A stretch of 64,000 nucleotides of DNA from Paramacrobiotus metropolitanus. Its lineage: Eukaryota > Tardigrada > Eutardigrada > Parachela > Macrobiotidae. A program made the position numbers and the translations under genes. The notes below the pieces were generated by a model. The model did no database searches. It saw only the letters and a program-made list of their open reading frames with translations, and was not told the DNA's origin. Of this stretch, positions 5,024 to 63,989 are shown piece by piece. The stretch lies in NCBI RefSeq assembly GCF_019649055.1, contig NW_026570284.1, positions 791,883 through 855,882 of the forward strand. The letters run 5' to 3'. Each line of letters opens with the position of its first letter. Position 1 is the stretch's first letter.

Positions 5024-5029
5024 TTTATT
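5024..5029 (-). terminator. Polyadenylation signal of family A copy 1
   Basis: TTTATT on the plus strand (AATAAA on the transcript strand) lies about 256 bp past the stop. The surrounding 3' flank is shared with the second copy (18764-18769), so the duplication included the 3' UTR. Confidence 0.5.
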
Positions 5030-5284
5030 TAATGCTACCCAAAGCTATACAACTGCACCTTGAATATTACTATCCATACAGGAGGATAAAGACGTAATAC
5101 CAGAATGCAAGAATAAGTATAGAACGGGTGAATAGACCGAGGGGGTAGGCACGGCTTGAAATGTGTCAAAAAGAAAAATTTATCCACGAATCTACAAAGC
5201 CGAAGGTACAGTGAATGTACAATTATGGAAATCCGACATAGTATACGGATGCAGGGAGCTGCCAGAATACGACACACATAAGTA

Positions 5285-11900: not shown

Positions 11901-12369
11901 GCCGTCGATGGAAACTTTCCTCGTCAGTTTGCAACGGCAGATGTTCGGTCAGGTGGCAGACCGGCACAACCCGGCATTCCGGTGAACTAGAGGATGTGTT
12001 TGGCTGATTTAAGCTGACCGCACAGAACATGCAGTATATTGAGTTTCTATCTTCAATCACAGTAGCTGGTCGGAATATGAACGGTCCGCCGGGTTCGTCC
12101 TGTAGTGCTGCATGCAAGGAAATCTGAGGAACTGATGATGTAAGGCCACGATACCGGATCCTACGATGCGGGTATACAAATTTAGAATGGATCCATTCGA
12201 TAGGGATGGTGCTGGCATCGAAGTCAATGAAGAAGTAGTCGCCGTCAATATCTTGGACACTTCCTAGCCACCATTGGCCGTTGTCACGCATCACGAGCAC
12301 TGTGTTTCTGTAATTTACAGTCCGTCCATCGGAGCGCAGCTCCCGAAAATAGCGCGATAAGCCGGACAT
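8968..12369 (-). pseudogene. Family B copy 1 (B1): probably decayed paralogue
   Basis: Paralogue of B2 (16009-18252) with the same exon order. Exon 1 runs down from an ATG at 12369 and has NTVLVMRDNGQWWLG, DGDYFFIDFDAST and WIHSKFVYPHRR, matching B2. Further exons are near 11740-11478 (DTVTFICAEVHGDAAGRSL), near 10410-10230 (weak), about 9970-9178 (RVCALWHQL, MIPFLRFRDTETATEKWH) and 9091-8968 (RWDNVDMRQLDLSS, stop at 8968). Compared with B2 the frame is broken near 9480 (the frame ends at ASDGRYR and resumes in another frame) and near 11755, where an in-frame TAA and a shift separate two homologous parts. It could still be expressed if short unseen introns bridge these points, but decay is the simpler reading. 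Function is unknown. Confidence 0.55.
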
Positions 12370-28121: not shown

Positions 28122-28286
28122 GCACCCAGTTTTGTGAAATCTGCAAGGAATAACATACTGATTTCAGAGCGAAATCAACACATTTTGTCGTCTTTTGAAG
28201 TTTTTTCGTTTGTCAAATCGTAAAACACTTTTCCGTGTTTTTCTTTTCGTTTATGAGTTACTGTGTTATTTTCCTTCATTCGCGTC

Positions 28287-41297: not shown

Positions 41298-44200
41298 TTA
41301 ACGTTTCCAATGTAACGGTAATACGATAGTCGCGTAATCCTTCTGCATCTGAAAAAAACAACTGACCCTGAGAGGCAACGTGGGAATGGGGAACGACTGG
41401 AGAATACCGGGATCCAGCAGCAATGACGAGCTGGGTGGCGATGCAGAGACCGGCTCCGTGGTCAAGAGCTGGAAGGGTACCGTGGCGGACGGATCCGGTG
41501 AGGGAGAACGGACGGGAACCGGACGTTCCGCCGGCGGGGCCTTGGTGATTTCCAACAGATGCTGGATCAGACCGGGCACAATGGAATCTACTTTGGCTTT
41601 CGTGTTATCCCACAGAACATTCTCGTGGATGATTCCCGCTGTATATTCCTGGAATACACCTGCTGTGCTCATCACCAGCAGCATATTCTTGATTGATTCT
41701 AACACGGCTTCTTTCTGCAATTGCAACGAGTTGTTACTAAACCAAAACAAGGAAAATAATAAAATTGAAAAGCAAACGTACCACAAGATCCGATTTGCTA
41801 TCGGATTTCAAAAACTGCTCCAACAGATCAAGGATCGACATCCATAATTCCCCAAATGTGGGTAGGCTCAAAAGAGATGATAAGTGTTGCAAGAATACCT
41901 ACAAAATCATAAATGCAAATTTGCAATACTTTCTGCAAACAACACTTTTGCTAATTCAAATTTCGAACCTTGCAAACCAGCGGTGCAGCTCGAACGATAG
42001 TTTCTTCCATATTCGTAGGCTGTTTTCCATCACTTCTCAACGCCAGTAATAAAGGAAATAAGACCTGAAGAATTTTCAAATGAAAGAATGTTTTTCGCAG
42101 CCACCATCAACTTGTCAGGTCATACTTTGAGAATGCATTCTTCCCATTGTTGCGGCGTTAAGGCTTGCAAGTCAGGAATAAGCAGTGACCGGTTCAGCCA
42201 CGTCAATCCATCCGTCCGGACAATTTTTCGATAATCACAACATAACCGTGCCATGGCACGTAGCAGCGGACACCACACTTCCGTCCATAAATCAATTCTC
42301 ATACTGCGGCAAACGGAAAACGCCCGAACATGGACTGTGTGCATCACATCTAACAGCTGAAAACAGAATAACAATACGTAAGAACAATACTTGTAATTAC
42401 CTGTTGTAATTATTATGCAATTAAATGTAAAAAATGCTTGACATTATATTAGCTCACACAGCATAATCAATAACAGTTAGCAGCTAAAATACAATAATTT
42501 TCACAATCCAGTCTATAAATAAACTATGCACTGATTAATTTAAAACTTTAATTCTAAGCAGGGCAAAACAAAGTTTTAAACGTACCACCAGAGATTCTTT
42601 AATATAATCCGAACTGTCTTCATCACCGGGACTAACTGGTGTCGACACAGGACGACTCTGATTCTTTCCCGCCGTGCGTCTTTCCGCTTGGATTTTCTGC
42701 TGTAATCGTTTATCCATCTTTTTCAACACTGTCCTCTGCACTCTGCCATTAATCCCCGCACTCCCATTCACACTGGCTTCCGCAAACACGCACAAACAAT
42801 GCACTAGCGCGGCCATATTCTCCGGCACAATACGACCGGTATCTTTAATCAAAAACCTCAACGATTCTACGGCGGTAAAGAAGGCGCTCTTGTCATGATG
42901 GACAAACTCAAAGGGAAATACCAGCATGTTGCGCTCGCCAGCGCTGCCGGTTTCCACAATCTCCCCTTCCTTTCCCACCATCAACCAGGTCATACTGCCG
43001 GCCGGACTCAAGGAGGACTGATTGTCGTACAATTCCGGGTCGGATGTATAACCGCGATCGGAGTCGACTTCCGGCTGGACGCGAACCAGTGGAGGGCTGT
43101 CGGGTTTGCTGAGATCTTTATCCTTAGCTGTTGAAGAGCGCAAGCCAGCGCCAGCACATTCCAGCAAGGTTAAAAGAAAGCCCCAATCTTCGCTGGATTT
43201 AATGGCGGTGGCATTGGCTTGAAACAGATCGTACAAGGCAAATGTCACCTGTCGCGATATTCGGTTAAAGAATTCCACTCGTATGCCTTGAAGGAGTTTT
43301 AACGACCGCAGGACTTCTTGCTGTAATTCTTTGTCATGATCACGGGAAGAAAGCGCACGGCTAGTCGCAACAAACCCACGACCGCTCTCTCTGAGAGGAA
43401 AGTCATTTCACTGCGATTTTCCTGCACAAGACAGAATAGTTTAATCATGACCCATGTGCAACGACATGCATTTCTCAGATACCATTTAAAAAGATGAAAT
43501 ACATATGCCACTAAAAATAACAAAAATCAACATACTTGCATGTAATGGGTTACCTGAAGTAAAGTCGTGAAGAAGTAATCATGCACAACGGGCCACAATT
43601 TCAGACCCTGTTCCCCCAGTCTATCGCGATTTTCAATAAGGACTTTCACCAACGTCTCCAGGCAGACGATCGCCTGGTCTTCGTTGATCGTAACCGGGCC
43701 TTTCTCCTGCGTCGAACCTGATGGATTGCTTTCTTGCACCGGTTTCTGTCCATTCTTTCCCGTCACAATCAATGCATCCACAAAATGTTTCAGCGATTCA
43801 TTCTGCAGAAATTTGCTGTCGATCACCAGATCGCTGATTTTGCATTCCTCCACGCACCCTTTGGCAATATTTTTCAGCTCTGTTTCTTCCTGCAGCGATA
43901 CCGTACTGCGACTACCGGAATCGAAAGCAATAAAATTGAAAAACGAATTCAAAATTCCGCTCTCCTGTTTGGGTATAACGGGATCTTCACGGATCAAAGA
44001 TACCGTCTTCTGCAGCCCAAAATCATCACCGGTGTAAAAGTATTCAGGCAGCAATCGCACACGGAACAGCTGCACAATACATTCCACAATGTTCTTCCAA
44101 CCATCGCGTAAAATATCTCCATGCTGGTGCACCAGATTAAACATCGTCTTGGTCACTAACTGCGCCTTAGTATTCTGTCCAAAGGATATCGGCAGAACCG

Positions 44201-47200
44201 AGATGGGATCCGTAGAATTTTGCAATGTCGAGTATTTACACAACGTCACCACAATATTATCAAATATCTCGCACGACATGATCCGTGGCGATGCCGCAAT
44301 GAAAGCACACTTTTTGAATCCACCAATCGTCTTCCGAATTACCGATTCGTCGCCAGTCTTGTCGAAAGCATGGGAGAGTGCGGAGACGGTTGGTCCCCAT
44401 AATAACGCAAAGAGTTCACTATCAAAGGAACCACACGCCACATTACTGTAGCTGGCTTTATCCGCCCGCCGCAACAGCATCTTCCACAAATAGAGATCCT
44501 TCACCCGCCCGGTACGTTCGGCCGGCATAACAATCTCTTCATGACTGATACTGTGATAAATCTGCTCTAGTAGACCAGCATCAAAATCCTCTCCGGTCTG
44601 CGCTCCGTCTTTTTTGTTGACTTTCGAGAGTTGTTTCTTAAAGTCATTCAGTGTCAGTGCAGCCTGTTTCTTGGCGGTCTCGTTGTGTAGTGCGGTGTTC
44701 AGCATAATAATCGCGTAGGACATCACAAAGGCGGAATCATTGGACAGATAGGGACTACCGCAGGTTAATTGCCAACGGGCGGCAAAATGTTCCATAATAT
44801 GCGTGATGAGGGGAGATTCACCCGGAAGACGGAAGGATTCCAGATAGTCGCGGAGTGCTTCATCCAGACGTTTGCCCGCAAAGTCAAAAGTTCTAATAAA
44901 AGTAGAAAAACAATTTACACACACTACAAAACAATGCCAAATTAATCGGCAAAGAGGTATCATAGCATACTTCATAAAAGCGCTCAACACTTGCGTGTTC
45001 TCTCGTTTGCTAATAAATTCTCCAATCATAGCTTTGTCCAGTCGAGAATTTTCCCGGAGAAACTTGGCAACTTCCGCCGGCTGCAGTGGATGGCTCAGTA
45101 AGCCATGCTCTTGTAGGCATTCAATGCCTTTGGGAGGCTTCTTGTTAAATAATTCAGTGCCATTTATGAGCAGCTAGAAAATTAAAGTACGAGTAGGTAA
45201 TCAGAATATTTCAATCATACCGCTGCGAAAATTACCTTCTTCTTCACTTTATGTTTCTGCAACATTGCGTGCTCCGCAGGGGGAAGTTCTCGTGGAAGTG
45301 TATCCAGCAACGCTCTCTGACAGTTGCGATCAATTTTCTCCACGGCGATTAATAAACATTCCAGGGCGAGCACGTTAACGTTGGTCAGATTTCCGACAGG
45401 GAACGCATTCTGCAATTACGAGTGTTAAATCTGTGTTTAAAACGGAAACATTAATCACTGAATAAAACCATGCAGATCATAAATTAACTAAATTAGAATT
45501 TCCCAACACTGCGAGGTACATACAAGTAAGTAATATAATTTTACCTTGGATAGAAGCTTAACAAGATCCTCGTAAAGATCACTGCAGTATAAATCGCAGT
45601 CGTAATTCAGATAGATCTCTGCAATAAATCCAGGAAGTCGCCATAACCGAATAATCAAATCAATAGCAGCTTCCTTGTGTTCCGGTGTATATTTTGGAGT
45701 GTCAGATGAGATAACTTCCATTAGTGATAGAAAGAAATGCTGAAAACAGTGCAAAACAGAATGTTGTATTAAATGGTTGCGAATAAAACTAATGGTAAGT
45801 AGTAACATACCTCCATCTGAAGCTTGAGAGATCTTCGCATTGATTCGAAGACAAAAAATGATAAGCGCAATGTCAAGGTAAAGATGGACAGCCGGTCATT
45901 TTGTAGCAACTACAACAAAAATTGTTATCAGGACGTTCCAGAAATCTGTATATGATTAGCACTGGTAAATTGGTAAACTTGTTTCTTTCTTACAAATGTA
46001 AGATTTCGACACAGTTCGTCTTTGATCAACGGCATCAAGGTTGGATGCTCAGGGAAGGCATGTGCCGATGTTTCCAGCACAGTTCCCAGGAGTTTTAATC
46101 CAAGATTCAGCTTCAATTCGAATTCCATTTCCGAATTTCTGAAAAAGTCGCATTCAACGCGGCAAAACAAAAATGTCGCAAAGTTTTCAAAACTTACCGT
46201 TCAATTTTCTCTTCGGATCGAATAAGGGTAACAATGTACCACAATATTTCGGAGATGGCCGGCAATCCGTACGGGATATAAGCGCCGGTAGCTGCAGAGA
46301 AAGCTCAATAATAAAAAGTGGTTCAAATACAAATGGCAACTTATCAAGCCGACATTTTCGTACAGAAAAGTAGTGGCAACAATACGAATTTATACGTAAG
46401 TATCACCGAGAATTTTCGTTACTGGGAACCAAAAAAATCACAATCGGTGCATGATTAGGAACGTACAATCATTTTTCGGCAACGGTGAACTAAATCGGAT
46501 TCCTCTTTCATCCACCGAATCCTCTTTAGTCTCAACGGTTTCGGCTTCACTGACTTCTCGCTCTGGACTGCCTTCTTCTTCCAAATCATCGTCCACATCC
46601 CCTTCGTCCGGGGCAGCCGCCTCCCCCATACTCCAGGACACTGGTGCCGGAGTAGGCGGTTCGGAATCGGAATTCACCACACTGGCAGATTCACCAGCAC
46701 TGGTTATCGTAGCTTCCGTCAACACGGATTCGGATGTCGATAGAACGCTATCGGACTGCGAACCGGTTTGCGCTCCTCCACTTTCTGCCACCGATTCCGA
46801 TTGCACTGATACGGAATCCTTCGGCTGTGTGGATACCGACGGTTCTGAAGTTTCTCCATCGGGGGCACTGTCGGCGGCCACTTCCGGAACGGCAGCGGGT
46901 TGGACAGGCGGAACAGGAGCGCGCCGTTTCAGAATATGATTTCGAAGCTGAAAGCGAATTTTCCTTTATAGTTTTATGGCAGAAGCCCAATCATTTGCTG
47001 TATTTTACATACACAGCATAGTTAAAACCTGATGGCACGTATTTGATAGCATTTAAATGCAGCAAGAATGATCACCTTTTTCTTCATTGTGCGCTTAGTC
47101 GAATCTTTCATCTCTTCTCCCAATTTTTCGCGGTCCAAACGGGCAAATAAGTGCTGGATGATTTCGGTAAGAAACGTATCGGATATTGTCCTTAGAAGCA

Positions 47201-48698: not shown

Positions 48699-48704
48699 TG
48701 GTGC
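48699..48704 (+). repeat. Target-site duplication, left copy (TGGTGC)
   Basis: The 6-bp TGGTGC directly abuts the left end of the giant element and recurs at 63984-63989 immediately after its right end. Confidence 0.85.
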
Positions 48705-49128
48705 TATGGAATTCCGAATGGCCGCGAGTTTTGTTGATTTTAAACTTTGATTTCAAATTCTTTGTCTTGAAATCAACGATTACAAATCGATGATTTTCAA
48801 ACACCATGATTTGAAATCAATGATTTTTACATCAATGATTGCGAATCACTGATTTCCAAGTCATGATTTTTCGACACCGTGATTTCCAACCATTGATTTA
48901 AGTTCAGTGATTTTCATTCAACGATTTTCAGTAGCGTGAACTGACATCAATGATTTTCTATCATTCATTTAGAATCAATGATTATCAATCGTTGATTTTG
49001 TACCACTGATTTTGCTTCATCAAAGACTGCACTTTACTGATTTTCAATCACTTGATTTAAGTTCAGTATTCAAAATCAACGATCGACAATCAATGATTTC
49101 CAATATGTAACCGCCGCCCCGTGCACCG
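48705..49128 (+). repeat. Left terminal inverted repeat
   Basis: It pairs with 63560-63983 with only scattered mismatches. It is filled with a near-palindromic motif of the type ATCAATGATT or ATCATTGATT, every 10-25 bp. Such iterations often serve as transposase-binding sites. Confidence 0.88.
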
Positions 49129-49382
49129 AAAGGAGTGACTCTGATCGCCACCGCGTACCGGAAACCTGTTATTCGGACTTTAAATTTTTTCCGGTTCCAA
49201 TTCCATTTCCACCGGACCAGTTGCGGTGGTTTAATGGAATTTGTGTTGTATTGCTGGAGTTTTCCCAAACTACTGGAATATAGTTTCAGTCTGGCTGGAA
49301 ATAGCAATGTTGACAGTCTTTTATCTTTTCTGTTTTCTAGAAGATTTATTTGGTTTTTCGTAGTGAACCTTGAGAGAACAAA

Positions 49383-50659
49383 ATGGATCAATTTTATATC
49401 TTTGCGGATTCGGTCGTAAGACGAGCTCAGCGGTTTCTTTCAGCTGAGGATGGGGACCACGATCAAGATGGTGTTGACGGAGCGTTGACACAAGTTGATT
49501 ATTTACTCGGGTAAGTTCTGAACAGCAACGCCGCAACGGTTTCACAATATTTTTGTTTGTACTTGAATGTTTCGTCTAGCAGATATACGCGTGATATTTG
49601 CGACAATTTACCGGAGGAGCGGAGGGCTCAGGAGCTGTTCGATACACTTATTGATTGCTCGAGTGCTTTACGACTTCGACTGCAGGAAGACGAAGATGGG
49701 ACGAAATCTGTTTTGCCTTAACTGAGTGCACTAATTCGTATGGAAGACTTTTTATTCCCGAGGATGATTTGGCTGGTTTGCGATCTGAAGGATTTACAGT
49801 GAAGGACATAGCTCGGTTTTATGGAGTTGGAGTTACGACAGTTAAGCAGCGATTGGCAGAAGCTGGTTTAAATAAAAAGGTAAGCTTGCACTGGTGCATA
49901 GTTTGACAGGCTGTTTACTGGCCGAACAAGCTATTAAAGAACTACTTGATTGTGAACTGCTGTAACTGTTTTCAGTTGCCCTCGGTTGTAATATCTTTCG
50001 TTTTAATTGTAGTTTTCAACGATTAGTGATGCTGATTTGGATTTATTGATTGCGGGAATTTTGGAATCATTTCCAAATGTCGGATACCGTTATATTTTGG
50101 ACAGCTTAAGACTGGAGGATTGTACATCCAGCGCAGGAGAATACTTTCATCGTTGCGAAGAATTGATCCGTACGGAGTTGCTAACAGATATCTCACTTTT
50201 GTTCCCCGAAGAGTATATTCTAATCCTGGTCCGAACGCTTTATGGCACATGGATGGGAATCACAAGTTGGTTCGCTGGGGATTCGTTATACATGGAATTA
50301 TAGACGGATATTCCAGGACGATTATTTCTCTCATTGTTGCAACGAACAATCGAGCTAGTACAGTGCTGGAAGCGTTCCTGTCTGGTGCGGAAGCGTGGGG
50401 TGCGCCTTCTAGAGTGAGAAGCGATTGCGGAGGTGAAAATGCGTTTAAAGTAAAATTTTGATTTTTGTCATAATTTTCACCCTTTTGGTTTTTGCTACAG
50501 CGCTTTTTTGATGCTGTTCCGGTAATGGACATCATCAGTAGCTTTCCTGCTGAAGCTGATTTCATAAGGGCGAATATGGATGTGCGAGCGAGTGATGGAT
50601 TTTGTGGAATTAATGTTTTTCAAGCAGCGAAAGAACTTTTAGAAGAACATTTCCACTGA
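49383..50659 (+). pseudogene. Broken rve/IS3EU-like integrase of the giant element
   Basis: Exons are about 49383-49510, 49580-49879, 50013-50442 and 50501-50659. Visible parts: a helix-turn-helix segment (EGFTVKDIARFYGVGVTTVK), an SLRRIDPYGVANR linker, and the catalytic core with ALWHMDGNHKLVRWGFVIHG, IDGYSRTIISLIVATNNRAS and RVRSDCGGEN. The first two catalytic aspartates are present. The expected third acidic residue region, with its ER-W-type motif, is not found, and the last exon does not resemble it. Two single-base frame breaks lie near 49720 (a TAA cuts the first frame) and near 50117 (the frame changes between SLRLE and YIQRRRI). The protein would not be made whole, so the copy is probably transposase-dead. 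Confidence 0.75.
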
Positions 50660-52060
50660 AAGAAATCGCGTCGGTAAGTAGACTGGCAAGTAGTACATCA
50701 ACTCGTGCATAATGTGACTTGCTGCATGGGCCTTTTTAAGTTTTGTTTGTAATGTTGTTGACTTTCAAGTAGCCTACTCCATACGAACATTTTAAATGTT
50801 TGGCGTTTTAGTTTTCTCTCAAACTTGTTAACTCTAGTGAGTGTACTTGTGTTGAAAACGTACACAAATAAATAATAATCATTAAAAGTTTAAAACAGTG
50901 AATTATCTCTGCTCAGCTAATTCTGTGCGTCATCAGCTATGCGGACGGTTATTCTTGAAAGAACACTTACTGTTAGTACTTTTTACGATTACTAAGTGCT
51001 TTGTAAAAAATTACAACATTTGTATCGTAAAGCTTAGTTACGTAATCCTGCGCTGTAAAGTGTGGAAGGTATACCAGATTATACGTATCATATCTCAGTA
51101 TCCGAAAGATAATGTTTATTTTCTTCAGGTTTCTTTCCAGCAGTGTAAACCGCAGGCGATATCATGGGTTGAGCCCTACGATTGTATGGCAGAAAAGCGC
51201 CTATCGTTGTGAGTTTCGTTCTAAATTTTGTTTCATGTTATGTCGGTGTAAATTGGATGTCCCAACACGCATTTGTATTATATTGCGCGCTCCGGTTACA
51301 GATTCTTCAGTTTCATTAACACGGAGTTTCGACAGGCAGCTCTGCCAACCGCAACCAATATTGCTATTCGGCAATCATATTTCTCGCGAGTCGCGACATT
51401 TTGCGGAACCTGTGGCCTGTGTCTCTCGGTCAGGCGAGGGACATGTGGACGGGATACTATTCCGTAAGTGCGGTGCAGTACGTTTCGGCTTCGCGTAGGA
51501 GAAAGCCGTGTAATACCGTCATCCTCATTTGAGAGTCAGATGGCCTGGGCATTGACTCATTTATTTTCTATTCACAATTAGAGAATTTAATTTGTCAACC
51601 GTCGTAATAGGCTGCAGTATCTTATGAGTTGCCATAACCTGCTCTGTAGAATAAGGCTGGATAGTTGATCTGAGACAGGTTAAAGTGGCACGGTGGCGTG
51701 CTTTATTAAAGACATTTCTTTCTTGTTCATTCTTTAGGTTTTCAAATGCACAACCAAAGCCGTTCTCCTCGAATACAAAAGCCTGCTTGTTAGAACTAAT
51801 TGTTCCGCTTTTTTTGTAGAGTGCCCGACCCACACAGTGGAAACTGGAAAGTGATGCTAAACTTAGATAAACCACACACGGTTTTCTTGTGGCCGTCAAG
51901 ATTTGTTGGGATTCTTATTTTAAATTAGCCTGAAGATAAGCCTCTCGCCTTGGGAAAACATGATATCGTGTCCACCAGCAGTAAGCCCATATAGGCAGCG
52001 CATCTATGCCTGTGGTGGTGTTTTGTTGTGAATATTAAGTAATGGAACGGGCTGTTGCAG
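50660..52060 (+). other. Element interior with two exon-like segments of unknown origin
   Basis: Segments 51141-51210 (QCKPQAISWVEPYDCMAEKR) and about 51299-51466 (INTEFRQAALPTATNIAI) are open, bounded by AG and GT, and share phase 2, so they could be neighbouring exons. I do not recognise the product. The rest is AT-rich with no supported feature. Confidence 0.3.
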
Positions 52061-54590
52061 TGGCGACTGTTCCTGTGGAGAAGAAAATGCGCAATATCCC
52101 GCAATTTGGGCCCGCAACATCCCGCAGCGCACGGTGTATTACGTTTGGTTTTGGAGTTAGACGGAAAGGCGGGTTAATTCTTTTGCGTTATGCTTCGTAT
52201 CTGCCTTAGCACAATGTCTTTTTGCTGTCGTCCAGACATGCTGTACAGGAAATACCCGATTTGCTGGCTATGCAAGCATTTTTGGACAGCGTGAATTTTA
52301 AAATTTGTATGGATGTTTTTCTTGCAGACGGTGGTGCGGGCTGATCCCCATATTGGGTTGCTGCATCGCGCCACGGAGAAGTTAATCAAGTGTAAAACCT
52401 ACATGCAGGCCCTGACGTACATGGACCGTCTGGATTACGTGTCCATGTTGTGCAATGAGCAGTGCTTCTCCCTGGCTATTGAGAAATTATTAAATATCGA
52501 TATTCCGGTATTCCCATATCGGTATTCGGTATTCCCATCCGTGCGGAATGGATTATAGGTGGGTTTTTGTTAATTTCTTTCGCTTTCCAAAAGCGAATAG
52601 AGCATTTTTTTGTTACTTCTTTCTAACAGATCTTTTAACGTACATTGCTGATTACTGTAACTCCGTTCTCCGTAAGTGTTAAAATGTGCTGGGTTTTTCT
52701 GCAGTTTTATTCGGAGAACTTACTCGTATTTTAAATTACAATACGCATGCCCTGAATATCAGAGCAATGACGCCTTTTTCTGGTTGTTTGAGGAATGCGA
52801 AAAGGTACTTACATATTATTCTGCAATAAGTCGACGTCGCTGATTTATTAACAACAGCAAGTGAGGAACTGCAGTGTACTGTAATTTTATTGTAATTAAT
52901 ATGAATCTAATTAGTTTTCTTATGAGTACTGTAACAGGTGGAAAAAGCAAAGCAAGAATGGCACTGATAAATGTTTGCACCCTTTTAGTTGTGTGAATTT
53001 TTGAACGATTATCCGGCGCCCGGATGCTCGCGAATTATGCTTGTCCCGGTGGAGTGCAGTACGATTTGCCGTTGGGATTGACGGATGACATCTACGACTG
53101 GGCTATTAAGTATAACCAACGCCTGGATGAACTGGAAGATTTCCTTACTGGTAATCGTATCTGGAAAGCCCGAACTGTCGGCACTGGAACGGTGTCGGCG
53201 GAGGACGCGCTTGCTTATGAGATGAGGTGTGTCTCGTTGATTTTGATGTTTTGCTGGCATTGCATGTTTCAGTTTCTTTAGAGCTACGAGAAGAATTGAC
53301 AATGTTGGAAAGATTGGTATAGTTTTGCACCTTAATTTAACTCATACGTAGTGCATACACATTTAAGTCGTACGCACACATTCCTTGAAATCATACTGTT
53401 TCATTCCGAATTAAATACTCGCAAGAATTATGCTGACATGAAAACTTGTGAATTCGTTCTTACAGTGGTGCGATGTACGAGGATCCGGCATCAAAAGAAA
53501 TTTGCGTAAAGTGCAGCCGTACGATGCATACAATCAAGTGGAGTTTGATGTTCCCATCGGTTCACACTGGGATTGCTACGATCGCTACCTGGTGCGCGTG
53601 GAGAAATGCGCCAGTCGCTGCGGATCATCCATCAGTGCCTGAATAAAATGCCACCTGGCGAGATCAAAGTGGACGATACAAGGTGGTGCATCCCTCTCGA
53701 AAGGTAATGAAGGTATGCTTACGACCGTGTCGTACGGTGCATGGTGGTTTCTTGTAAAATGGGTAAATTGGTCAAATTAGTGCACAAATAATTTTATGAA
53801 GTAGAAAGGCATATAATTAAAACAATTATTTAGATGCGCAACGTTAGTGGTAATGTAAGTATTCGGCAGCATATTACGATAGTATGTGGATGTTCTGACA
53901 GCACGTATCGAAGCCGATAGGTTATTTCTCATGAGCTTGTTCGGTCAAAACGGTGCTAAGAGAATCCCATTTTGAGGAGGCTTTCACTTGGTCACCGAAT
54001 GTGATCTCATTAGCATGTCCGTATTACCCAGTGAAAGCACATCTGCACACTGTTTGAGTGTGTAATGGTATGTGAAGTTTTCGATTCACGATTTTAATTT
54101 CCGTGAAATTCTGTGAATACTGCAGCTTACTTAACGGTCGCTATTTTCGTCGCCTCCTCTCTTATTTTCGCTATGTTTAAGTATTCCGCACGTACGTTCA
54201 CAGAACAGCGCCAGTATGGCTTTCACATTTTCATACTTTTGCATAATACTTATGCCATGATAACCCGGTTCACTGGAAAAAATCTGCTGTTTGCAGGAAT
54301 CGGTGGAGGCCTTAATCCATCATTTCAAGGTTGTACACCGAAGGCGTCCAAGCCCCGCCCGGCTTCACCTACACCGCCGTGGAGGCGCCCAAAGGAGAGT
54401 TCGGGATCTACCTGGTGTCGGACGGCACCAGCCGCCCCATGCCGCTGTAAAATCAAGGCGCCCGGCTTCACGCATCTCGCGGCCATCAATCATATCGGCA
54501 AGCAGCACAGATGTTGGCCGACATTGTAGCCATCATCGGGGCACTGGATATCGTCTTCGGGAAGTGGATCGTTAGATGTGTCGAAGCAGA
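52061..54590 (+). pseudogene. NDUFS2: NDUFS2 (complex I 49-kDa subunit) pseudogene, introns retained
   Basis: Fragments of the mitochondrial NADH dehydrogenase 49-kDa subunit lie in the right order. About 52061-52168 has [10 protein letters not shown], then a [14 protein letters not shown]-like stretch that is frame-shifted. 52328-52556 has [18 protein letters not shown] and [12 protein letters not shown]. About 52705-52804 has FGELTRIL with an internal gap. About 53014-53226 has [19 protein letters not shown]. 53467-53713 has [16 protein letters not shown] and PPGEIKVDD. 54299-54590 has EALIHHFK and KIKAPGFTHLAAINHIGKQH. Breaks include single-base deletions near 52105, 52780 and 53606, a 22-bp local duplication near 52515, and shifts near 54330 and 54440. 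Introns remain, so it is not an RNA-derived copy. It lies wholly between the inverted repeats, which suggests DNA-level capture by the element. Confidence 0.85.
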
Positions 54591-54890
54591 CTGTGTACAG
54601 GTTTAAACTAACGCAATGTCAGTGTGTTGTACTCCCTGTATGATTTAGTGTGTTTTTCACCTGTGTCGTTTACACAATGACAAATGCTAGAGGAGATACC
54701 ATGTAGTTGATGTTGACAGTTATGGTGGCTTAATTGGTTGTAATTCCTAAAGACGTTTATTATAAGAACGGTTGTGTTTAGTATGGTTGTTGCTGGTTGT
54801 TAAGTTCCTTCACTTCCATTTTATACCGTGTGAGGTAATATTTAGTGTCTGAGCGACAGTGCCGCATTTTTTTGTAGCAGGAATTGTGGA

Positions 54891-54998
54891 ATGATGCGGG
54901 CGATCTCTGGCTTGGTCTGCGTTGCCGTGCTAGTGCGGTCGGGATGTTTTCTTTCCGGTCAGACTCAGAACGTTGCACATAATAAATGTTGCACATAA
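54891..54998 (+). CDS. Short signal-peptide-like ORF (35 aa)
   Basis: It begins MMRAISGLVCVAVLV, a short hydrophobic stretch typical of a secretion signal, and stops at 54998. It could be the first exon of a longer relic: a GT within the codons after GCFLS could splice to an AG at about 55034. No product recognised. Confidence 0.25.
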   Translation: MMRAISGLVCVAVLVRSGCFLSGQTQNVAHNKCCT

Positions 54999-55033
54999 TG
55001 AAACGGTAATGTTGTGCATAATTATGTCAGGCC

Positions 55034-55505
55034 TCGATAACGGATATGGACTTCTGCTACCGGCAAACACTGAATCTCTTCCGCAGTGAACTCTCCAATC
55101 CAACCGCTGAACTGTCCGACAGCATACCCGGCTACCGCACCACGCAAATGAAAGTGCGGAATGCCTTACTCGATCTGGGCGTGCCGGGACCCACGAGCCT
55201 CATCACGGACCGCGGGCACACTACGCTACGCACTACAATCGTTCTTTCCGCTCTTCCAGAATACCGGCATCACGGAGCAGGGCGATCCGATCTGGCCAGG
55301 TGGGCGATTACTCCTAGAAACCGGCATACAATAGAAACAATGAATTTTTAGCGGCACGTTAGTTTCAAAGCTGCCGCCGGTGGGCTGTTCTCTGCATTCC
55401 CACGAACAGACCGCTAAATTTTGCAGTAGCCATTGGTTAACATTGCGTGAACTGGATTTCATTGGACACTTCCAAATGAACACGCCTGCAGAAGGAGCGA
55501 TCATT
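55034..55505 (+). pseudogene. GC-rich degenerate coding fragment, product not recognised
   Basis: Coding-like composition (MKVRNALLDLGVPGPTSL; in another frame FQNTGITEQGDPIWPGG) but no single open frame across the stretch. Like the NDUFS2 piece, it is richer in GC than the flanking AT-rich DNA. It may be a second captured host gene. Confidence 0.35.
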
Positions 55506-55623
55506 ACTGCGATTGCTAGTGTAGGCGGCTAAAGTTTGGGCAAAATTTAATTGCAGTTTTTAACTGATGAGTTAATTTGAACCTTTAATTGTCAATGCAA
55601 CATTTTTCCAGTTAGCCGAAAAC

Positions 55624-58600
55624 ATGGCGGATCCTGCGATGTGGAAATACAAGTGTATGGCTTCTGCTTGCGGATGTATAATCTCTACTCCAGAAGAAGT
55701 GGATTTTTCGTACCGAGCCCAAGGAAGCACCAAATGTGAGGAAGAGACATGTAAGCATTATTTGGGGAATCATAGGTTGATCAACTATATGGACATTCTG
55801 GGCCGTCAAGTGGACATCCAACGCAGTGCACCTGCCAGCGGTTCGATTGAAGGCGTCAATACCACGCAAGCCCCTGTTACGATCAATAACAGCGCAGCCG
55901 CCAACAGCTATACGCCGCATTCGCGTGGAGCAGTTCAACATGACGGTAGATCATTTGGACAAAGCATAACTGGCGCTCCAGAAGTCCGAGGCAACACTGG
56001 AAATGGTATGCAGGTAGCGCGAATTCAGCAGCCGGGAATGCAGCTAGCCCGCATGCAGCAGCCTGGAGTACAGCATGGACTGAATCCTCAGAATGCTGGA
56101 TTTAGTGGCGGACGCCAGAGTATTGGACTTCAAGGGTCACGGTCGCGTCCATCTGCACCATATGGTTATCCACCAGGCGGATCGTTCGGACAGTCTCCGT
56201 TGCAAGGCGCCCGTGGCGGGGACGTGGAGCAAGACGCCAAAGTCTCGAATGTTCCGTTCACCTGCTAGTTCAACGCCCGCGCAGCGAAATGTCTGGAAGT
56301 TCCCCAGGTCGCTTTCGAATATCCCATGGATGTCTATTTGTTCCGCTACCGAGACAAGAATGCTATTCCAACACAACGAGCGCGGTAAGTTTACCAGCTA
56401 TGCGCATACGGCTTGCAATTTAAGAACACGTGTGCGTTAAACGGTTATCACAAGCTGTAATGTTTCCGGCATGTTTTTATACAGTGAGGGCAAAACCGAA
56501 TTGGAATTAATGCGATTTTGTGGATTGATTAAACGCGTCAATTTTCAAGAGCTCAGTGGACAGCACATTCGAATGAAAATCAACGAAGAGTTCGCCAATT
56601 TCTTGCAAGGCAGGGAATGGATTCTGCTTAGTCGTATTGTGGTGGATCCCAATAACCCGGATCGCGTTTACCTCTCCGGGAAGCACATCTTCCCAGCAAA
56701 TTTGCCGACAGAGTCTCCATCATGGGCGTTCCAGCAGATGTAAGCGAATAACGTATCATTTATTTACAGCCATTAGATGAGAAAATTAGTTTGAATTAAT
56801 TTGGCGATAAATGCAGGTATTCGGAAAATCCAAATCGCGAAACTGTAAATCGCATGTACATTGCGGCCGACAGCGGAATCATCAACATTTCACGAGAACT
56901 TGTCGAGAGATTTGCTGAGGTAAACAGAATTCGGGAATGAAGATGTATCCGGTTGATTAAGTTCATATGTTTTCCAGTCCGAAGGAAGACTGTTGAAGAG
57001 CTGGGACTGCGTGGTTTTACCGGTGAGTATGAGTGTGTGCAACTTGGAGGTTTCGACATGAAGCTGTCAAAAGCTACAAGTTTTGTTATATTTTAGATGA
57101 ATTAAACGGTAACAGTGGGATGCGCAACATTTTACGATCCTTCGGCGCCAGTACGTCGCGATTAAGCGGCGCCAGTACATCAGGATTGTCAAGCCAGCGT
57201 ACTTCTGATTTGGCTGCTCGTAATAACTCTATATTTGACGTTTCACCCTCCTCGTCGCCTCAACCAGTGCGCCGTGGCACTGTTGCGGCCCAGCTAAACC
57301 AAGATGTCAGTGGTATTCATCGAAGTCTCCGATCCACTGTGCCTATCATCTACGTTCCTTCAGATGAAAGTGATGCGGAAGATGTTGCACGAAAACAGCG
57401 GCGCCAGTGAAATCGCAAACCACCAGTTGTGTGTAAGGTCACCGGACGAGAACCCATGTTCAAGTCGAAACTTACGTGTTTGAATGGATTCCCGGGAACG
57501 ATAACGTCCAGAACTGGATCGACTTCCACTATGCGCATGGTCCTAATTTGGCTGATGGGGGAAGGCCATGTATTCAAATCGAAGAGTAAGCAAACTGTTC
57601 AGAAATTCTTGCAAATGTTTTAGCAAGTGAAAAGGGCGCTGCAAGACATTTATTATGCTAGCCGCTAAAACTGCTGTCAGAAAGGCTTATACTGGTACAC
57701 ACCGTGTTTGTTAAAAATGCATTTGTCTCTATGGTGAATGATTTGCTGTAGTGCAACTGACTTGGACGGCCCGTATAAGGAGGTCATGACGAAGCTTGGT
57801 CAAGCATTTCTTCACTACCGCATCCCGGATTTAGGCATTACGTTGTTCGAACAATGTGCAACAGTTGTATTAATATCGTCGGATGCCATTGTCACCGAAG
57901 GGACATTCTGCACTTCGAGCATTCGGACACTTATTGCGAGATTCAGTTTACATGGAGCGCCCTTCGTTACTTGGTTGAACTCTTCAGTGTTCCGCTACTT
58001 GTTGAATCTTCCCATTGAGGTCAATGATATTTTCTCGTTCAGTCCCGGTATCGGCAGTATGATCGATGGCATTATGTCTGGTGTGGGACCTGTCGTGCTG
58101 GAGAACGAGGAAGCGCTGAGAGTGGGCTGATTTGAATCTGAAATTCCCGGTAAGATAACGAGATAACCATGTTAAAACAGCGGTATGATTGATTAGTTGT
58201 ATTGCAGTGTGCTGTCCTTCTGGAACACGGACGTGAGCAACTGTGCAGACTAATTGCGGAATTTGAACTGGTCCACAAACGTGCCGGGAATTTGAAGTAT
58301 GTCTACGAGGGACTGGTAGCCGGAAAAATGTACAAGGTAAAATGTGACACTTTTTTGCGGTTTTGAAAAGTTTTCAATACTGTAGTCTTATACAGGAACT
58401 GATGGCGTTTCGCTCCGACTGGAAACGCTTTGAGCCGCAGCTGTACCGCGCTGTGATGGAGGGCAAAGATCTGCTGGAGCAGTTCAAAACGTTGAACGAA
58501 GATACTGCGGATGACGAAGAAATCCAGACAATGGCATGGCTTGATGACATAATTTTGGAAGAGTTTAGCCAGCACGAACGCAAGCAACTGTTACGATTTA

Positions 58601-58818
58601 TCACCGGATCGTACATGGTACCTGCAACGCCAAAGATTGAAGTTTCATTCACATTCGCACGGGACGGAAACCGACGTCCAACCGCTACGACCTGTACTAA
58701 CAAGCTGACTCTTCCGAGCGGATGCATGAGCAAAGAGCAACTACTGGAAGGTTTGCGGGACTGTATTGCGTCAGTGGATAATGAAATGCAGGGCATTTCC
58801 AGTTTAACTGAATCGTAA
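55624..58818 (+). CDS. HECT-domain E3 ubiquitin-ligase-like gene of the giant element
   Basis: Exons with supported borders are 55624 to about 56378, 56485-56739, 56817-56919, about 56979-57022 and about 57100-57410; later pieces are near 57425-57590, 57738-58130, 58205-58336 and 58396-58818. The N-terminus is Cys-rich (YKCMASACGCIISTPEEVDF), followed by a Gln/Gly-rich stretch (RIQQPGMQLARMQQPG). The C-terminus has the HECT C-lobe: QLLRFITGSYMVP, then RPTATTCTNKLTLPSG, where the Cys corresponds to the catalytic thioester cysteine. Ligases of this class take ubiquitin on that cysteine. Anomalies: an in-frame TAG near 56266 inside exon 1, and frame changes near 57410 and around 58130. These may be unseen introns or decay. 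I recall HECT proteins accompanying this integrase type in other animals, which supports it being element-encoded. Confidence 0.65.
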
Positions 58819-59640
58819 GCAACAACTTTTCTCCATTTGCAGTTCTTTACCAGCGTAATTCATGTGGCTTTTACAAGCGCGTACTAGATACGGTGATGTT
58901 TTTTCACAGGTACTGGTACATGGTATGCAGTTTATTGTGGAAAACTGGAATTGCAGATTAAACGGAACTGCGGAATTGCGGATTAAGCGGCATCACTATG
59001 ACGCTGGAATGAGCTATACCTGAACGAAATGAGTCGTGTTCATGTCAATATTGAGATTTTTTAGCTTTTGTGATTTTGCTTTGTCGGCATTCTCCTACAA
59101 TTATGTCGATTTGAATTAGAACGTCATTAAGATATAATAATAAGCTTCGATTTATTAATTTTAGCTTTTGAGATTTGCTTGGCAGCGACTGACTTCAGAA
59201 TAATGATGTGCATTTATGGAATGCCTTTTGCTGTGCTGGTTATCAGTGTTCCAGTAACTAATTGTGAAACTGAAACGATTTTGATTAAATGCGCCGTTCG
59301 TCAGCCAAAAAAACTGATACCGACTACTCAGAGACAAGTAGAAATTCGCCAGGTAACTGTTTTGAAATTGGACACTAGACTATAGAATTTGGTGTTGAAA
59401 ACAGTGCCTTAAAATTAACTGATTCGTTGAGATACACCTTTGACCTGGATGGTTTCTAAACATTTTTGCTAAAAAGACTTACTAAAATTTAATTTCTTTC
59501 TACAGCCATTGTAAAAATATTCGTTACAGGTTTACGTCTTCTGAAAATATAAATTCAATATATCTCAATAAAAGACTTCCGTTACCAGCATTTTGTGCCT
59601 TATCTTACTACATTAAATATCTGACTAAACATTTCGTTTC
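58819..59640. other. AT-rich element interior without a gene
   Basis: I see nothing supported apart from scattered short frames. Confidence 0.4.
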
Positions 59641-59748
59641 CGTCGACCAGCATCTGACTGAACAAATATCATATGCCTTGTTTTACAAGCACTGGTTCGA
59701 AAAAACGATGCGAAATTCTTACTAATTGCCTTTTGTGGACATGCGCTG

Positions 59749-60109
59749 TTGACTGTACCTGCTAGCATGCGCACAAACGGCAAAGACAAAGAGAAAGAAT
59801 CCGTGTTCCCTCTCCGCCCTACAAACGCGTCAAACTGGACAGCGGTGAGATGGCCTTTCCGCCAAGCCGAAGGTGCGGTCCGCCAATGGCCGGCTACCAT
59901 TTCCCGATGCACCGGAGGATTTCTTCTACCATCTCTCACCGCATACGAAGAAAGAACGCCGCAAAGCCATCACCACCGCCGAACTGAAGAAGGCAGGTCG
60001 TGCCCAGCGGTTAATGTTCACCTTCCTGCCCAACCCCGGCCGGCTGCATCACTTCCTCTCCATCGTCCCGACACAGGCGGTGAATGACGACGTGGTGGTG
60101 ATGCCTTGA
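59749..60109 (+). pseudogene. Second GC-rich coding relic inside the giant element
   Basis: An abruptly GC-rich patch whose frame ending at 60109 reads naturally (APEDFFYHLSPHTKKERRKA, LMFTFLPNPGRLHHFLSIV), while its upstream half (PPYKRVKLDSGEMAFPPS) is in another frame. I do not recognise the parent gene. The composition break and the frame switch suggest a captured, decaying host exon. Confidence 0.4.
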
Positions 60110-61151
60110 AGAAACAGAGCGAAATACCTCGTTCTCTTGGGCTTGAAGAACAGTTTGTGTCATTTGCTTTTTTACGGTTAATGTCGGATGAGCTCTGTGT
60201 TTTATTGTTATTTTGTGAATTTTTGTTAGGTGCGGCTTTTTTTTATTGGTTATACCATTCTCTACCTTAGTACCCGTATTAGCACAAAATTAGATTTTTG
60301 TTAGCTGCACTGACTGTACTGTGCATTGGTGAATGCATACTTTGTTGTTTTTTATTGTCTGCATGCCGTGTTTTTCTTTGATGTTAGTACATAACAAAAT
60401 TTGTGACATTTGATCTTAATGGATAACGGAAAAGTACCATAAATTATTGTGTAATACCAACGACATTTTGTGGAATCTTAAGGTGCGTGGAAAACACGAA
60501 ATGCGCCTTTATTTTGCAAATAAATTGAACCTTGGTGTGAATTTCTATGTCGTTCTTAATTAGATGTATAGTAAGCATGAAGTGTGCGGTCGTACTATTT
60601 GTTTTGATTTTGATGCCGGACAGTAGATTTTCGATTTATCGTCAAACACACCCAGAAAAACCATACAAGAAGTGGAATGTGAATGCATGATAAAAGTGCA
60701 CACCATGCACAAACCACTCACAGCGATGTTGTTTTATGTTAACTGCATAGCATATGCCCTTACTTTATCGTATTACACTGATATTATTTGGTTTATTAAA
60801 TATTTAAAATGTCAACTTTGGTAAAATGTCGCGCATTTCAGCACGACTGACTAGCACAAAGCTGCACACCACATACACATTATAAATTCGCCGTTTTTCC
60901 TGCGCACTGCACTGAAGGACAGTTTCGAAAGGTCAAGTGCGCGCGCACATCTTTTATATCAGCCGGCACACGTTATTTCTGCTGTTGGGCTGATCGGCTT
61001 CCGTTTCATCCAGGGAATCGGTTTCTATCACGACGACATTGTCGTGCACCACTGAACAGCAAACGGACCAGTGTACTGCCGCAGAATCCCAAATGTCTCT
61101 TCTACAACAATATACATTCACTTTGATATTGCTAATAGCAATATTAAGTGC

Positions 61152-61182
61152 TACGGTATATAGCAATTTGCTATATACCGTA
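61152..61182. repeat. 31-bp palindrome (15-bp arms, 1-nt centre)
   Basis: TACGGTATATAGCAA at 61152-61166 is followed after one T by its exact reverse complement at 61168-61182. It could extrude as a cruciform or mark a former excision or insertion point. Confidence 0.7.
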
Positions 61183-62004
61183 CATAGTCGTGACCTTTTA
61201 AGGGAAATATTTTCCTTTTTCTCCGCACACATATATATATGTCCGCCTAACTCGCCCGCGCTGGCGCCGCATAACTATTTGAAGGTGATCATATTGTTGA
61301 CAGAGATGTTGCTTCCGCCTTTAATCTCCATGTAATCCCCTTCCGTATGGATTACAAACCTATGGATGCGCAACAAATAACATAACGTGATCAGAGATTT
61401 GACGAGGAAGGACATATAATAAAATTTAATAAGTCCTGTTATATAAATAAAATAAGGCTTCCGACGCAAAAAAGAAAACTGCGTGCCAAGAGATGTCTCG
61501 GATCCATATGTTAATGACGTAAAGTTATGTGAAAGTACAGCATCCTTACACACTTCGTTCTGTTTGTTGCGACCGAATCGAAAATATTTTCAAAATGCCG
61601 AAAAATACTCTAATGTATATGCTTTATTTTGCTTCTGACAATTAAAAGACCGTTTGTTATTAAATCAGATGATATTTTGAAATTTCCGTACAGCGCACTC
61701 AGCGCAGATACATAAACATACACTTTTTTTCGTGTGATGCATTCTGCCCGGTTTATAAAATTTTAACTAATGTTGAGTAATATTGAACCTGCTGTGAAAC
61801 TGATTATTGTTCACGCGTGCAGAAAATTGTACACAAACTTCCCGCATTCCCGGCAAACAAACAGCTGGAGAGATCACATACTCAAGTATTGATTCCGAGC
61901 ATGCGCGTCACTAGCAGGTAGCATTGCCGCCAATTTCGCAAAATAACCAATCATTAGCGCATAATGCAGTAGTAATGCACATGTAAATTAACACTGGTGC
62001 TGGT

Positions 62005-62272
62005 CAGCGTGACAGCCCAAGTGGTCGCGGGACATTTCGTCGGACATATCGCCACAGGTTTTTCGTTGCAGCGGCTAATTTGTTTTGGGACAACTCGTTA
62101 TGCAGCCGTTTTGTTGGATGATATTTGGTCGTCCGACATTTGGGGAGCCAAAAAATTATCGACTGGTTTATGACAACGAACAGTCATATGACTATTTGCC
62201 ACAAAACGGGTTGTCCTTAGACGAAATGTCCGTACAACCAAATGTCCCGCGACGACCTGTCGCGTAGCCCTG
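62005..62272. mobile_element. MITE-like insert with GTCGCGGGACATTT arms
   Basis: GTCGCGGGACATTT at 62024-62037 is mirrored at 62240-62253, with more GGACATTTCGTC-like repeats inside. The outer edges read CAGCGTGACAG on the left and CAGGGCTACGCGACAG (reverse complement) on the right, reminiscent of hAT ends. CTGGTCAGC occurs directly on both sides (62000-62008 and 62270-62278) and overlaps the proposed ends, so the true target duplication is uncertain. No coding capacity. Confidence 0.45.
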
Positions 62273-63032
62273 GTCAGCAGTAAAAGGTCAACGTAGGTTG
62301 CCATATGTGGCGGCATGAGGTGTAGTTATTGGGCGGTTACAATACTTACATCTAAGCGCTTTTTATTACGCAGGCCTTACGATTACAACGTACACATTTA
62401 CAGATTTAAGGCACAATATTTCTGAGAATCGCGGCCAGAACCTCTCGATGAGAATTCAATGCGGCAGGGATTGCCTAATATTCGGAATGCCTGGCATCAT
62501 CATCCAAACCAAATGCGTAGTATAATGTATCGTGCTGTCTTCATAATTTGTTATAAAATCAGTGTTGTCCAAGCATTAATTCTATAACTGCACTTTTACG
62601 TACTGTACTCTGAAAGTTTTATACAAAAATTAAACTTGACTAAACTATTTTTTCTTTCAATACAGAATAATTTGTATGAATAAGTTTAATACATTGTATT
62701 TAGTAGTGGCTGGCAATCACGCAAAATTTTATTTTCTTAGCCGCCCGCACAATTTAGTGGAGTGGTTCTCCTGTGCGCTGAACAGCCAGCAATCACGCAT
62801 AACTCTTCCTATTTACAGTAAATTGCTGCTCATTCTTCTTTACTCGTCTCCTGACCTTTACTGCGGATTTAAACCAGCTGCGTTAGGATCTGCATCTATC
62901 CAGTTATTAAACCATAAAGAATCGCACAAGTGCAATTAATTGATCTTATTGTCCACATTAGCATTTTCCGATAAACACCGGTTTTATACATCTGCAGGCT
63001 GCAAAGTGACATCCTGTGGTAGAGACATAACA

Positions 63033-63314
63033 TCAACGGTACCCACACCAGCCTGTTCCTTTTTTCTGCCAGTTGTGTGAGTTTCTTCTCTTTTCGATTT
63101 TTTGAACCAAGTCCCAACTCGTTTTTGCCCGTGCCCTGTGGCTTCCAGGTTGACCGATCTTTTCAGCGATATGCGTGCGGGCCACGGAATGAGGAATTTT
63201 CAGCCCAGCATTATAATAAGCCAACATAATATCGATCTGAAACTGCTGAAAATGCTCTTTAGTGGCGTGCTGGCGGATGTCAGGGTTCTCCAGAACTTCT
63301 CCATGGACTTCCAT
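63033..63314 (-). CDS. Short ORF (93 aa), unknown
   Basis: The ATG at 63314 opens a charged, helix-rich frame (EHFQQFQIDIMLAYYNAGLK, HIAEKIGQPGSHRARAKTSW) that stops at 63033. It lies just inside the right inverted repeat and faces inward. No family recognised; it may be an accessory element gene or a remnant exon. Confidence 0.3.
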   Translation of the reverse strand: MEVHGEVLENPDIRQHATKEHFQQFQIDIMLAYYNAGLKIPHSVARTHIAEKIGQPGSHRARAKTSWDLVQKIEKRRNSHNWQKKGTGWCGYR

Positions 63315-63559
63315 TTTCCAAATGAAAATCAAATAACTGCCACTGCAATAAAAAAATTCTAGGAAACCTAAGGAACGGGAAGAACGGACAGAACCGAGTT
63401 TTACAAGGTGGACGCATATTCGCAAGTACAGTACTGTAAAACTGGCAACACTGAATAAATCTGGCCAGTGAATATTGACAGATTATCGTGAAAACCGCTG
63501 AGTTATCATTGTCGAGTCGAACGTGTTGAACGCAAGACCGTTGCCTTTAGTCGCTCTTC

Positions 63560-63983
63560 CGGTGCACGGTGCGGCGGTTACATATTGGAAATCATTGATT
63601 GTCGATCGTTGATTTTAAACACTGAACTTAAATCAAGTGATTGAAAATCAGTAAAGCGCAATCTTTGATGAAGCAAAATCAGTGGTACAAAATCAACGAT
63701 TGATAATCATTGATTCTAAATCAATGATAGAAAATCATTGATGTCAGTTCACACTACTGAAAATCGTTGAATGAAAATCACTGAACTTAAATCAATGGTT
63801 AGAAATCACGGAGTCGAAAAATCATGACTTGGAAATCAGTGATTCGCAATCATTGATGTAAAAATCATTGATTTCAGATCATGGTGTTTGAAAATCATCG
63901 ATTTGTAATCGTTGATTTTAAGACAAAGAATTTGAAATCAAAGTTTAAAATCAACAAAACTCGCGGCCATTCGGAATTCCATA
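63560..63983 (-). repeat. Right terminal inverted repeat
   Basis: Reverse complement of 48705-49128, with the same clustered ATCAATGATT-type motifs, ending GGAATTCCATA at 63983. Confidence 0.88.
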
Positions 63984-63989
63984 TGGTGC
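63984..63989 (+). repeat. Target-site duplication, right copy (TGGTGC)
   Basis: Exact repeat of 48699-48704, abutting the right end of the giant element. Confidence 0.85.

Follow-up and report, generated by a model that had tools for sequence, protein, structure and literature searches.

The stretch of DNA analysed here, called the window, consists of 64,000 nucleotides from the genome of the tardigrade Paramacrobiotus metropolitanus (Eutardigrada) and lies at the end of contig C64. At positions 48705–63983 it contains a large transposon with long terminal inverted repeats (TIRs), which measures 15,279 bp between the two copies of its 6-bp target site duplication (TSD). With a probability of about 90%, this transposon belongs to a cut-and-paste family of the IS3EU/GingerRoot type in P. 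metropolitanus. The copy in the window has internal deletions and would be mobile only in trans. Mobility of the family is shown by the ends, the TSDs and the other copies in the genome. IS3EU is a sparsely described superfamily of eukaryotic DNA transposons.

Ends, copies and damage

The unit in the window reads TGGTGC, then TATGGAATTCCG ... CGGAATTCCATA, then TGGTGC. The TSDs occupy 48699–48704 and 63984–63989, and the termini have the form TATGG...CCATA. The left TIR, which starts with the first of the sequences just given, spans 48705–49140 (plus strand, 436 bp). The right TIR spans 63549–63983 (minus strand, 435 bp) and closes with CCATA. When the left TIR is aligned with the reverse complement of the right TIR, 422 of 436 columns are identical (97%). 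The initial annotation had described a 15.3-kb unit with TAT...ATA termini and a perfect TGGTGC pair, which is borne out. Its long inverted repeats are also present, at 436 and 435 bp instead of the 424 bp given there.

Inside the left TIR, about 15 degenerate 14-bp units (AATCAATGATTTTC) are arrayed at 48770–48999 on the plus strand (Tandem Repeats Finder period 14, 60–70% matches), with a spacing of 14 or 28–30 bp. A mirrored array lies inside the right TIR at 63689–63903 on the minus strand. These arrays are possibly repeated binding sites for the transposase.

The same ends are found elsewhere in the genome. A search of the 169.8-Mb assembly with the left 602 bp of the element, in which all copy counts are lower bounds, finds at least five further copies of the family at other sites. 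Four of them are large: 16,728 bp in C2 (TSD TCAGTC), 16,106 bp in C4 (AGACCT/TGACCT, alike at 5 of 6 positions), 16,174 bp in C85 (GTGCAG), and 24,272 bp in C121 (C121:206497-230769; TCTTTC), where about 7 kb of the interior is tandemly duplicated (L015–L017). The fifth, in C231, is internally deleted to 3,874 bp and has no TSD. A check of this kind, searching the whole genome with the TIRs, had been suggested from the outset, with a lack of other copies named as a sign against a transposon; copies with TSDs of their own are what it yields.

More distant elements follow the same plan. At least five shorter relatives of about 3 kb each have TIRs roughly 70–75% alike, and four of five are flanked by perfect 6-bp TSDs. 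A second family is represented by an element of 18,937 bp in C88, with the TSD GTGCCG and TIRs of about 2–2.4 kb at 73–77% identity. The termini TATGG..CCATA occur in all six copies of the window family, and likewise in the C88 element. Both ends were inspected in twelve elements (six of the window family, five short relatives and one of the other family). Nine have perfect 6-bp TSDs, one matches at five of six positions (C4), one has none (C231), and one lacks a recognisable 3' end (L021). The copies in C2, C4, C85, C121 and the window differ from one another at 0.13–0.27% of positions in all ten pairs, gaps uncounted, and the family has therefore spread recently. A 3.4-kb TIR element with the TSD CGAGTC (C2:1426003-1429419, L019) lies about 1.5 kb from an integrase and HECT pair at C2:1430878-1440561.

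The window unit itself is a damaged, internally deleted copy of its family. It lacks two stretches, of about 529 bp and about 272 bp, that the copies in C2, C4, C85 and C121 all have. The longer deletion, with its junction at 50510, takes most of transposase exon 4, including the part with the catalytic Glu; the motif HNQRIERLW is readable in these four copies and absent from the window copy. The junction of the shorter deletion (57429..57430) lies within the HECT gene, upstream of its N-lobe, in sequence that the full-size copies keep. The transposon had first been called complete, which holds for its ends and not for its contents.

Small insertions and deletions are a different matter. The right half of the window copy (57426–63983) shows 59 gap openings against C4, while the same comparison gives 8–27 for C2, C85 and C121 (C85 over 5.4 of the 6.6 kb). 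The contig (C64, 855,882 bp) stops with the window, leaving only 11 bp of right flank past the TSD. Because polishing may have been poor close to the contig end, the small indels of this copy are not trustworthy, and the damage call rests on the two long gaps. The DD exon of the transposase is also one base short (423 bp vs 424) and opens in a different frame upstream of FGQLKTGG.

The transposase and the HECT ubiquitin ligase

The transposase gene lies at 49383–50656 on the plus strand. It is broken in the window copy, and its coordinates are lifted from C4. Its exons are placed at 49383–49511; at about 49584–49878, carrying the helix-turn-helix (HTH) region, with a start estimated from the C4 frame; at 50012–50434, the DD half of rva_4; and at 50510–50656, the remnant of exon 4. 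The open reading frame (ORF) in the window matches rva_4 at 2.1e-33. Manual splicing of the four exons in C4 gives a transposase that is 100% identical in alignment to a RefSeq protein of P. metropolitanus (P0001, LOC129602819 isoform X2).

The full-size protein has 485 amino acids (aa). HTH domains precede a catalytic core with D223, D280 and E315, a D,D34E arrangement. Profile matches are to rva_4 (2.2e-75), to rve (5e-07, below its cut-off) and weakly to HTH; the integrase zinc-binding (HHCC) family gives no match at E<=0.1. The core matches RNase H-fold integrases as a predicted fold, and a sequence search of PDB with P0001 returns no match up to E 1. A search for relatives on viral contigs produced 44 pattern matches, none of them confirmed. 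Intronless integrase ORFs of 436 aa occur at C86:257749 and C158:198217 (L032, L033).

The second gene encodes a HECT E3 ubiquitin ligase and lies at 55621–58808 on the plus strand, likewise damaged in the window copy and with coordinates lifted from C4. Its parts are a Cys-rich N-terminal ORF (55621–56437), two further pieces (56461–56740 and 57033–57429), the N-lobe (57738–58132) and the C-lobe (58193–58808). The window exon matches the HECT family of Pfam at 6.4e-16. Four RefSeq proteins, P0121 to P0124, of which P0121 is that of the C2 copy, all match it above the cut-off (6.6e-13 to 2.8e-15).

The product thus combines an N-terminus rich in Cys with a HECT domain of divergent sequence. 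In profile comparisons both lobes match HACE1 (positions 262–513 vs HACE1 630–893, E 2.3e-05), and the C-lobe matches E6AP. The motif TC[TSN]N.L.LP, which we take to be the putative catalytic Cys site, is present in all four RefSeq proteins. It is readable in five of the six copies of the window family, the region being missing from C231. In C4, C2 and C85 the C-lobe is open to its end (...GHFQFN) without a stop. A structure model made from one sequence reached a pLDDT of 33 and was not used.

The two genes occur together across the genome. When the hits are clustered, the integrase forms 29 clusters and the element-type HECT 21, and 20 of the HECT clusters lie 2.9–8.7 kb from an integrase cluster, the exception being C56:136737. 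By chance, such proximity within 10 kb would be expected for about 0.3% each. The 20 pairs comprise 13 in tandem with the integrase first, three in tandem with HECT first, three convergent and one divergent; they are not 20 independent events, as several loci are copies of one family. The C88 element, with HECT first and the integrase after it, matches the two-gene plan in its anatomy. From this linkage the HECT ligase is recognised as the regular second gene of the lineage.

Comparison of the C4 and C8 families provides a measure of constraint. The ratio of nonsynonymous to synonymous divergence (Ka/Ks) is 0.10 and 0.05 for two core exons of the transposase and 0.32 for 38 codons of its HTH exon. 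For the HECT lobes, Ka is 0.34–0.36 with Ks saturated. On these substitution rates both genes are constrained between families, HECT being the faster-evolving of the two.

Captured host DNA and neighbouring features

The element also carries segments of host DNA, which amount to about 7.6 kb of the 16.1-kb unit and lie internally, between its own genes. The first is an Argonaute-gene segment (50919–51918, plus strand; C4 positions 2752–3751), 84% identical to C20:353839-354818. In the source gene, the exon with an Argonaute-1 match (E 1.7e-20) shares 91 bp with the captured stretch. Short partial matches of the segment are also found at C521, C80 and C286.

The second is a decayed segment of NDUFS2, the 49-kDa subunit of complex I, which includes introns (51928–54851, plus strand). 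The corresponding C4 positions 3761–6684 are collinear with host NDUFS2 at C10:1756584-1759568 at 78%, and two exons in the C4 element match the Complex1_49kDa domain. All 26 NDUFS2 matches in the genome fall within element copies or on C10. That contig also has a second NDUFS2-like locus (C10:1801288-1803611, L031) with one exon inverted, which could be a relic, a paralogue or a donor.

The third segment (59340–62989, plus strand; C4 positions 11468–15099) corresponds to C8:2198558-2201838, with an identity of 93–95% in the C4 copy and of 92 and 84% in the window copy. It is called MTA1-like after its source locus, because an exon matching MTA1 (E 6.9e-13) adjoins the captured stretch with a 24-bp overlap, while an ORF within the stretch finds no match in PDB. 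A 265-bp genomic repeat (62009–62269) sits within the segment and is missing from the source locus. In the C2 copy, the RefSeq prediction P0121 continues past the HECT C-lobe into the captured ORF, so that a HECT/MTA1-like fusion is possible in this copy if the gene model is right.

The decay of a capture can be followed in the NDUFS2 segment. Five of its exons differ from the host gene at 22, 12 and 36 sites in codon positions 1, 2 and 3 (of 285, 286 and 285 sites). Positions 1 and 2 together differ at 34 of 571 sites, or 6.0%, which is about half the rate in the aligned introns (13.9% of 670 sites). Such a pattern is expected from continued constraint on the host gene together with free decay of the captured copy alone. 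Of the captures, only the MTA1-like one, with 3–4% mismatches, looks clearly younger. The idea that the Argonaute capture is younger than that of NDUFS2 was dropped, because no more than 10 bp separate the two segments and exon sequence is present in the Argonaute one.

Other families carry foreign stretches as well. In the C88 family, five pieces match C33:1240-1245k at 76–94%; immediately beyond the captured part, this locus has an exon that matches the ABCC transporter ABCC3 (E 1.2e-38). Further stretches of this family match C5:141-143.7k at 72–76% and C3:483.8k at 83%. Stretches of the C8 element match C34:661994-665133 in pieces at 70–83%. Similarity searches thus point to foreign stretches in all three families examined, with the loci in C3, C5 and C34 as candidate host sources.

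The remainder of the window contains a few features apart from the element. Two closely similar ORFs (NNLQDLVGKVQEWI...) lie about 14 kb apart on the minus strand, at 5285–5964 and 19025–19894, as a local duplication; the latter has no Pfam match. At 28257–30607 on the plus strand, an ORF with a Psq-type HTH (PF05225, 3e-06) is followed by one without a Pfam match, which looks pogo/Tigger-like to us and perhaps marks another DNA transposon. A Sec7-domain ORF (9.2e-55) at 43527–45173 on the minus strand is presumably part of a host ARF-GEF gene.

Explanations and known systems

In the proposed mechanism, the transposase, with its HTH and RNase H-fold D,D34E core, would bind the TIR arrays, pair the ends and insert the unit with a 6-bp stagger. 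The HECT ligase most likely either targets host proteins that hold the element in check or removes the transposase complex after strand transfer. Host genomic DNA, introns included, was most likely copied in when the template was switched in the repair of gaps left by excision, a process that may also be the source of the internal deletions. The captured segments would then decay as passengers. A broader account joins these steps: a two-gene core, in which a fast-evolving HECT ligase breaks down a host factor that restrains the element, or else recycles the transposase, combined with gene shuffling, in which exons are copied in and spliced onto the element's own genes. This account is tentative and has rather less than even odds.

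An assembly error, or two inverted repeats that lie at the end of a contig by chance, can be set aside almost entirely as the origin of the unit. The contig does stop 11 bp past the right TSD, and small gaps abound in the right half of the copy. However, four other contigs contain full-size copies with the same ends and the same captured segments, and three of these copies are flanked by their own perfect TSDs, which answers the concern raised in the initial annotation that the two ends had been joined by misassembly. A Maverick/Polinton that lost genes is also very improbable. Mavericks/Polintons measure 15–20 kb, like the tardigrade element, and their core genes encode PolB, capsid proteins, a protease and an ATPase. 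The resemblance extends to the long TIRs, the rve-type integrase and the 6-bp TSD, which is also given for Polinton (PMC10045372). The replication and virion genes are what differ: PolB, capsid, protease and packaging ATPase are found in none of the 28 window ORFs of at least 100 aa within the element, where a Pfam scan, run ORF by ORF so that genes split into short exons could escape it, detects integrase and HECT only. Moreover, the transposase matches rva_4 and HTH, and the same pair of genes occurs in the 18.9-kb element of a second family. The first reading had favoured IS3EU over Maverick/Polinton, and the TATGG..CCATA termini, the 6-bp TSD, the rva_4/rve transposase with HTH, and the lack of HHCC and Polinton matches uphold that choice.

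Several observations weigh against the two-gene and capture parts of the proposed explanation. Nine of the 29 integrase clusters lack a nearby element-type HECT partner of their own (C121a, C231, C2:3804730, C244, C51, C62, C70, C86:257749 and C158:198217). C121a shares its element with the paired C121b, C231 is deleted, and several of the others are fragments; C86:257749 and C158:198217 are full-length integrase ORFs with no HECT detected there, each followed by a Cys-rich ORF that resembles, by eye, the N-terminus of the HECT gene. The HECT frame shifts just before the C-terminus in the window and C121 copies, and their match holds an upstream stop, near a stretch modelled as an intron in P0121. 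Database searches with the HECT protein, in which the approximately 8,000 candidates with most shared words were scored, matched among these P. metropolitanus proteins only. The altered frame and the two integrase loci would suit a HECT gene that is a hitchhiking passenger in this lineage, without a role in transposition or host interaction, as would the decayed host fragments that the element also carries. Extra genes are known in IS3EU, namely alpha-kinase and TET/JBP genes in fungal TET+ families (PMC12730594, accessible part). Against such a passenger stand the Cys motif in five of six copies, the stop-free C-lobe in C4, C2 and C85, the constraint between families, and a linkage to the integrase that is kept through four arrangements; it is rather unlikely. 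About as improbable is the view that the host segments were captured otherwise than by gap repair here, either by enlarged units moving or by capture in another species followed by transfer. Gap-repair capture is inferred from its products. Ka/Ks is 0.20–0.23 for two captured NDUFS2 exons, which by itself would suggest constraint on both sides, and 0.5 kb after the NDUFS2 segment matches the second NDUFS2-like locus (C10:1802-1803.6k) better than the main gene. However, the segments lie internally, between the element's genes, and the difference between codon positions 1 and 2 and the introns (6.0% vs 13.9%) is as expected from free decay of the captured copy alone. This test outweighs the pairwise Ka/Ks, because it covers five exons with introns as a yardstick.

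The IS3EU family inferred here makes transposition testable: it has spread recently in an animal genome, its ends are exactly defined, several of its copies are full-size, and its transposase matches a RefSeq protein. A ubiquitin-ligase gene kept beside the transposase is a concrete candidate for counter-defence at the protein level, with a logic like that of fungal TET/JBP. The Argonaute, NDUFS2 and MTA1-like segments show that, in an animal, a TIR transposon which encodes a transposase has taken up host DNA in the manner of Pack-TYPE elements.

The assignment to IS3EU is made from the ends, TSDs and transposase domains by comparison with published descriptions. In their accessible parts, these give IS3EU TA..TA ends and usually 6-bp TSDs, with 45 Repbase families in 2022, of which 17 were autonomous (PMC10045372), and termini TAYGG..CCRTA for families of rust fungi (PMC12730594). 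The tardigrade termini fit this pattern, and the 6-bp TSD and an IS3/IS481/integrase-like DDE transposase without HHCC are shared (PMC10045372, PMC12730594). The tardigrade families differ in having HECT as a second gene, TIRs of 0.43 and about 2 kb, and captured host segments. The gene set had been thought to fit IS3EU as a whole; this applies to the integrase-type transposase, while HECT as a known IS3EU gene is not confirmed by the literature. Searches of the available literature found no paper that pairs IS3EU with HECT or ubiquitin, although such a gene might yet be described in notes of Repbase or in papers behind a subscription. Nor did they find a paper on a DNA transposon with a HECT domain and an integrase or transposase, or one on a phase-specific E3 ubiquitin with transposon and integrase. 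The accessible text of a paper on repeats in the tardigrades Hypsibius and Ramazzottius does not mention IS3EU (PMC11071193), and that of a review of giant transposons mentions neither IS3EU nor HECT (PMC6431247).

The fungal TET+ families offer the nearest parallel for the second gene, since these IS3EU elements likewise carry a regulatory enzyme as an accessory (PMC12730594). In their case TET/JBP targets DNA methylation, whereas the HECT ligase of the tardigrade element would target proteins. For the captured segments, the parallel is with the Pack-TYPE elements of plants, which according to the available text likewise hold host gene fragments between TIRs (PMC8903248). Pack-TYPE elements are non-autonomous families without a transposase, and the tardigrade family does not belong among them: it lives in an animal, its full-size copies encode their own transposase, and that of the C4 copy is identical to the RefSeq protein. 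As far as checked, what is new in this element of a known, IS3EU type is its HECT partner and the repeated capture of host DNA.

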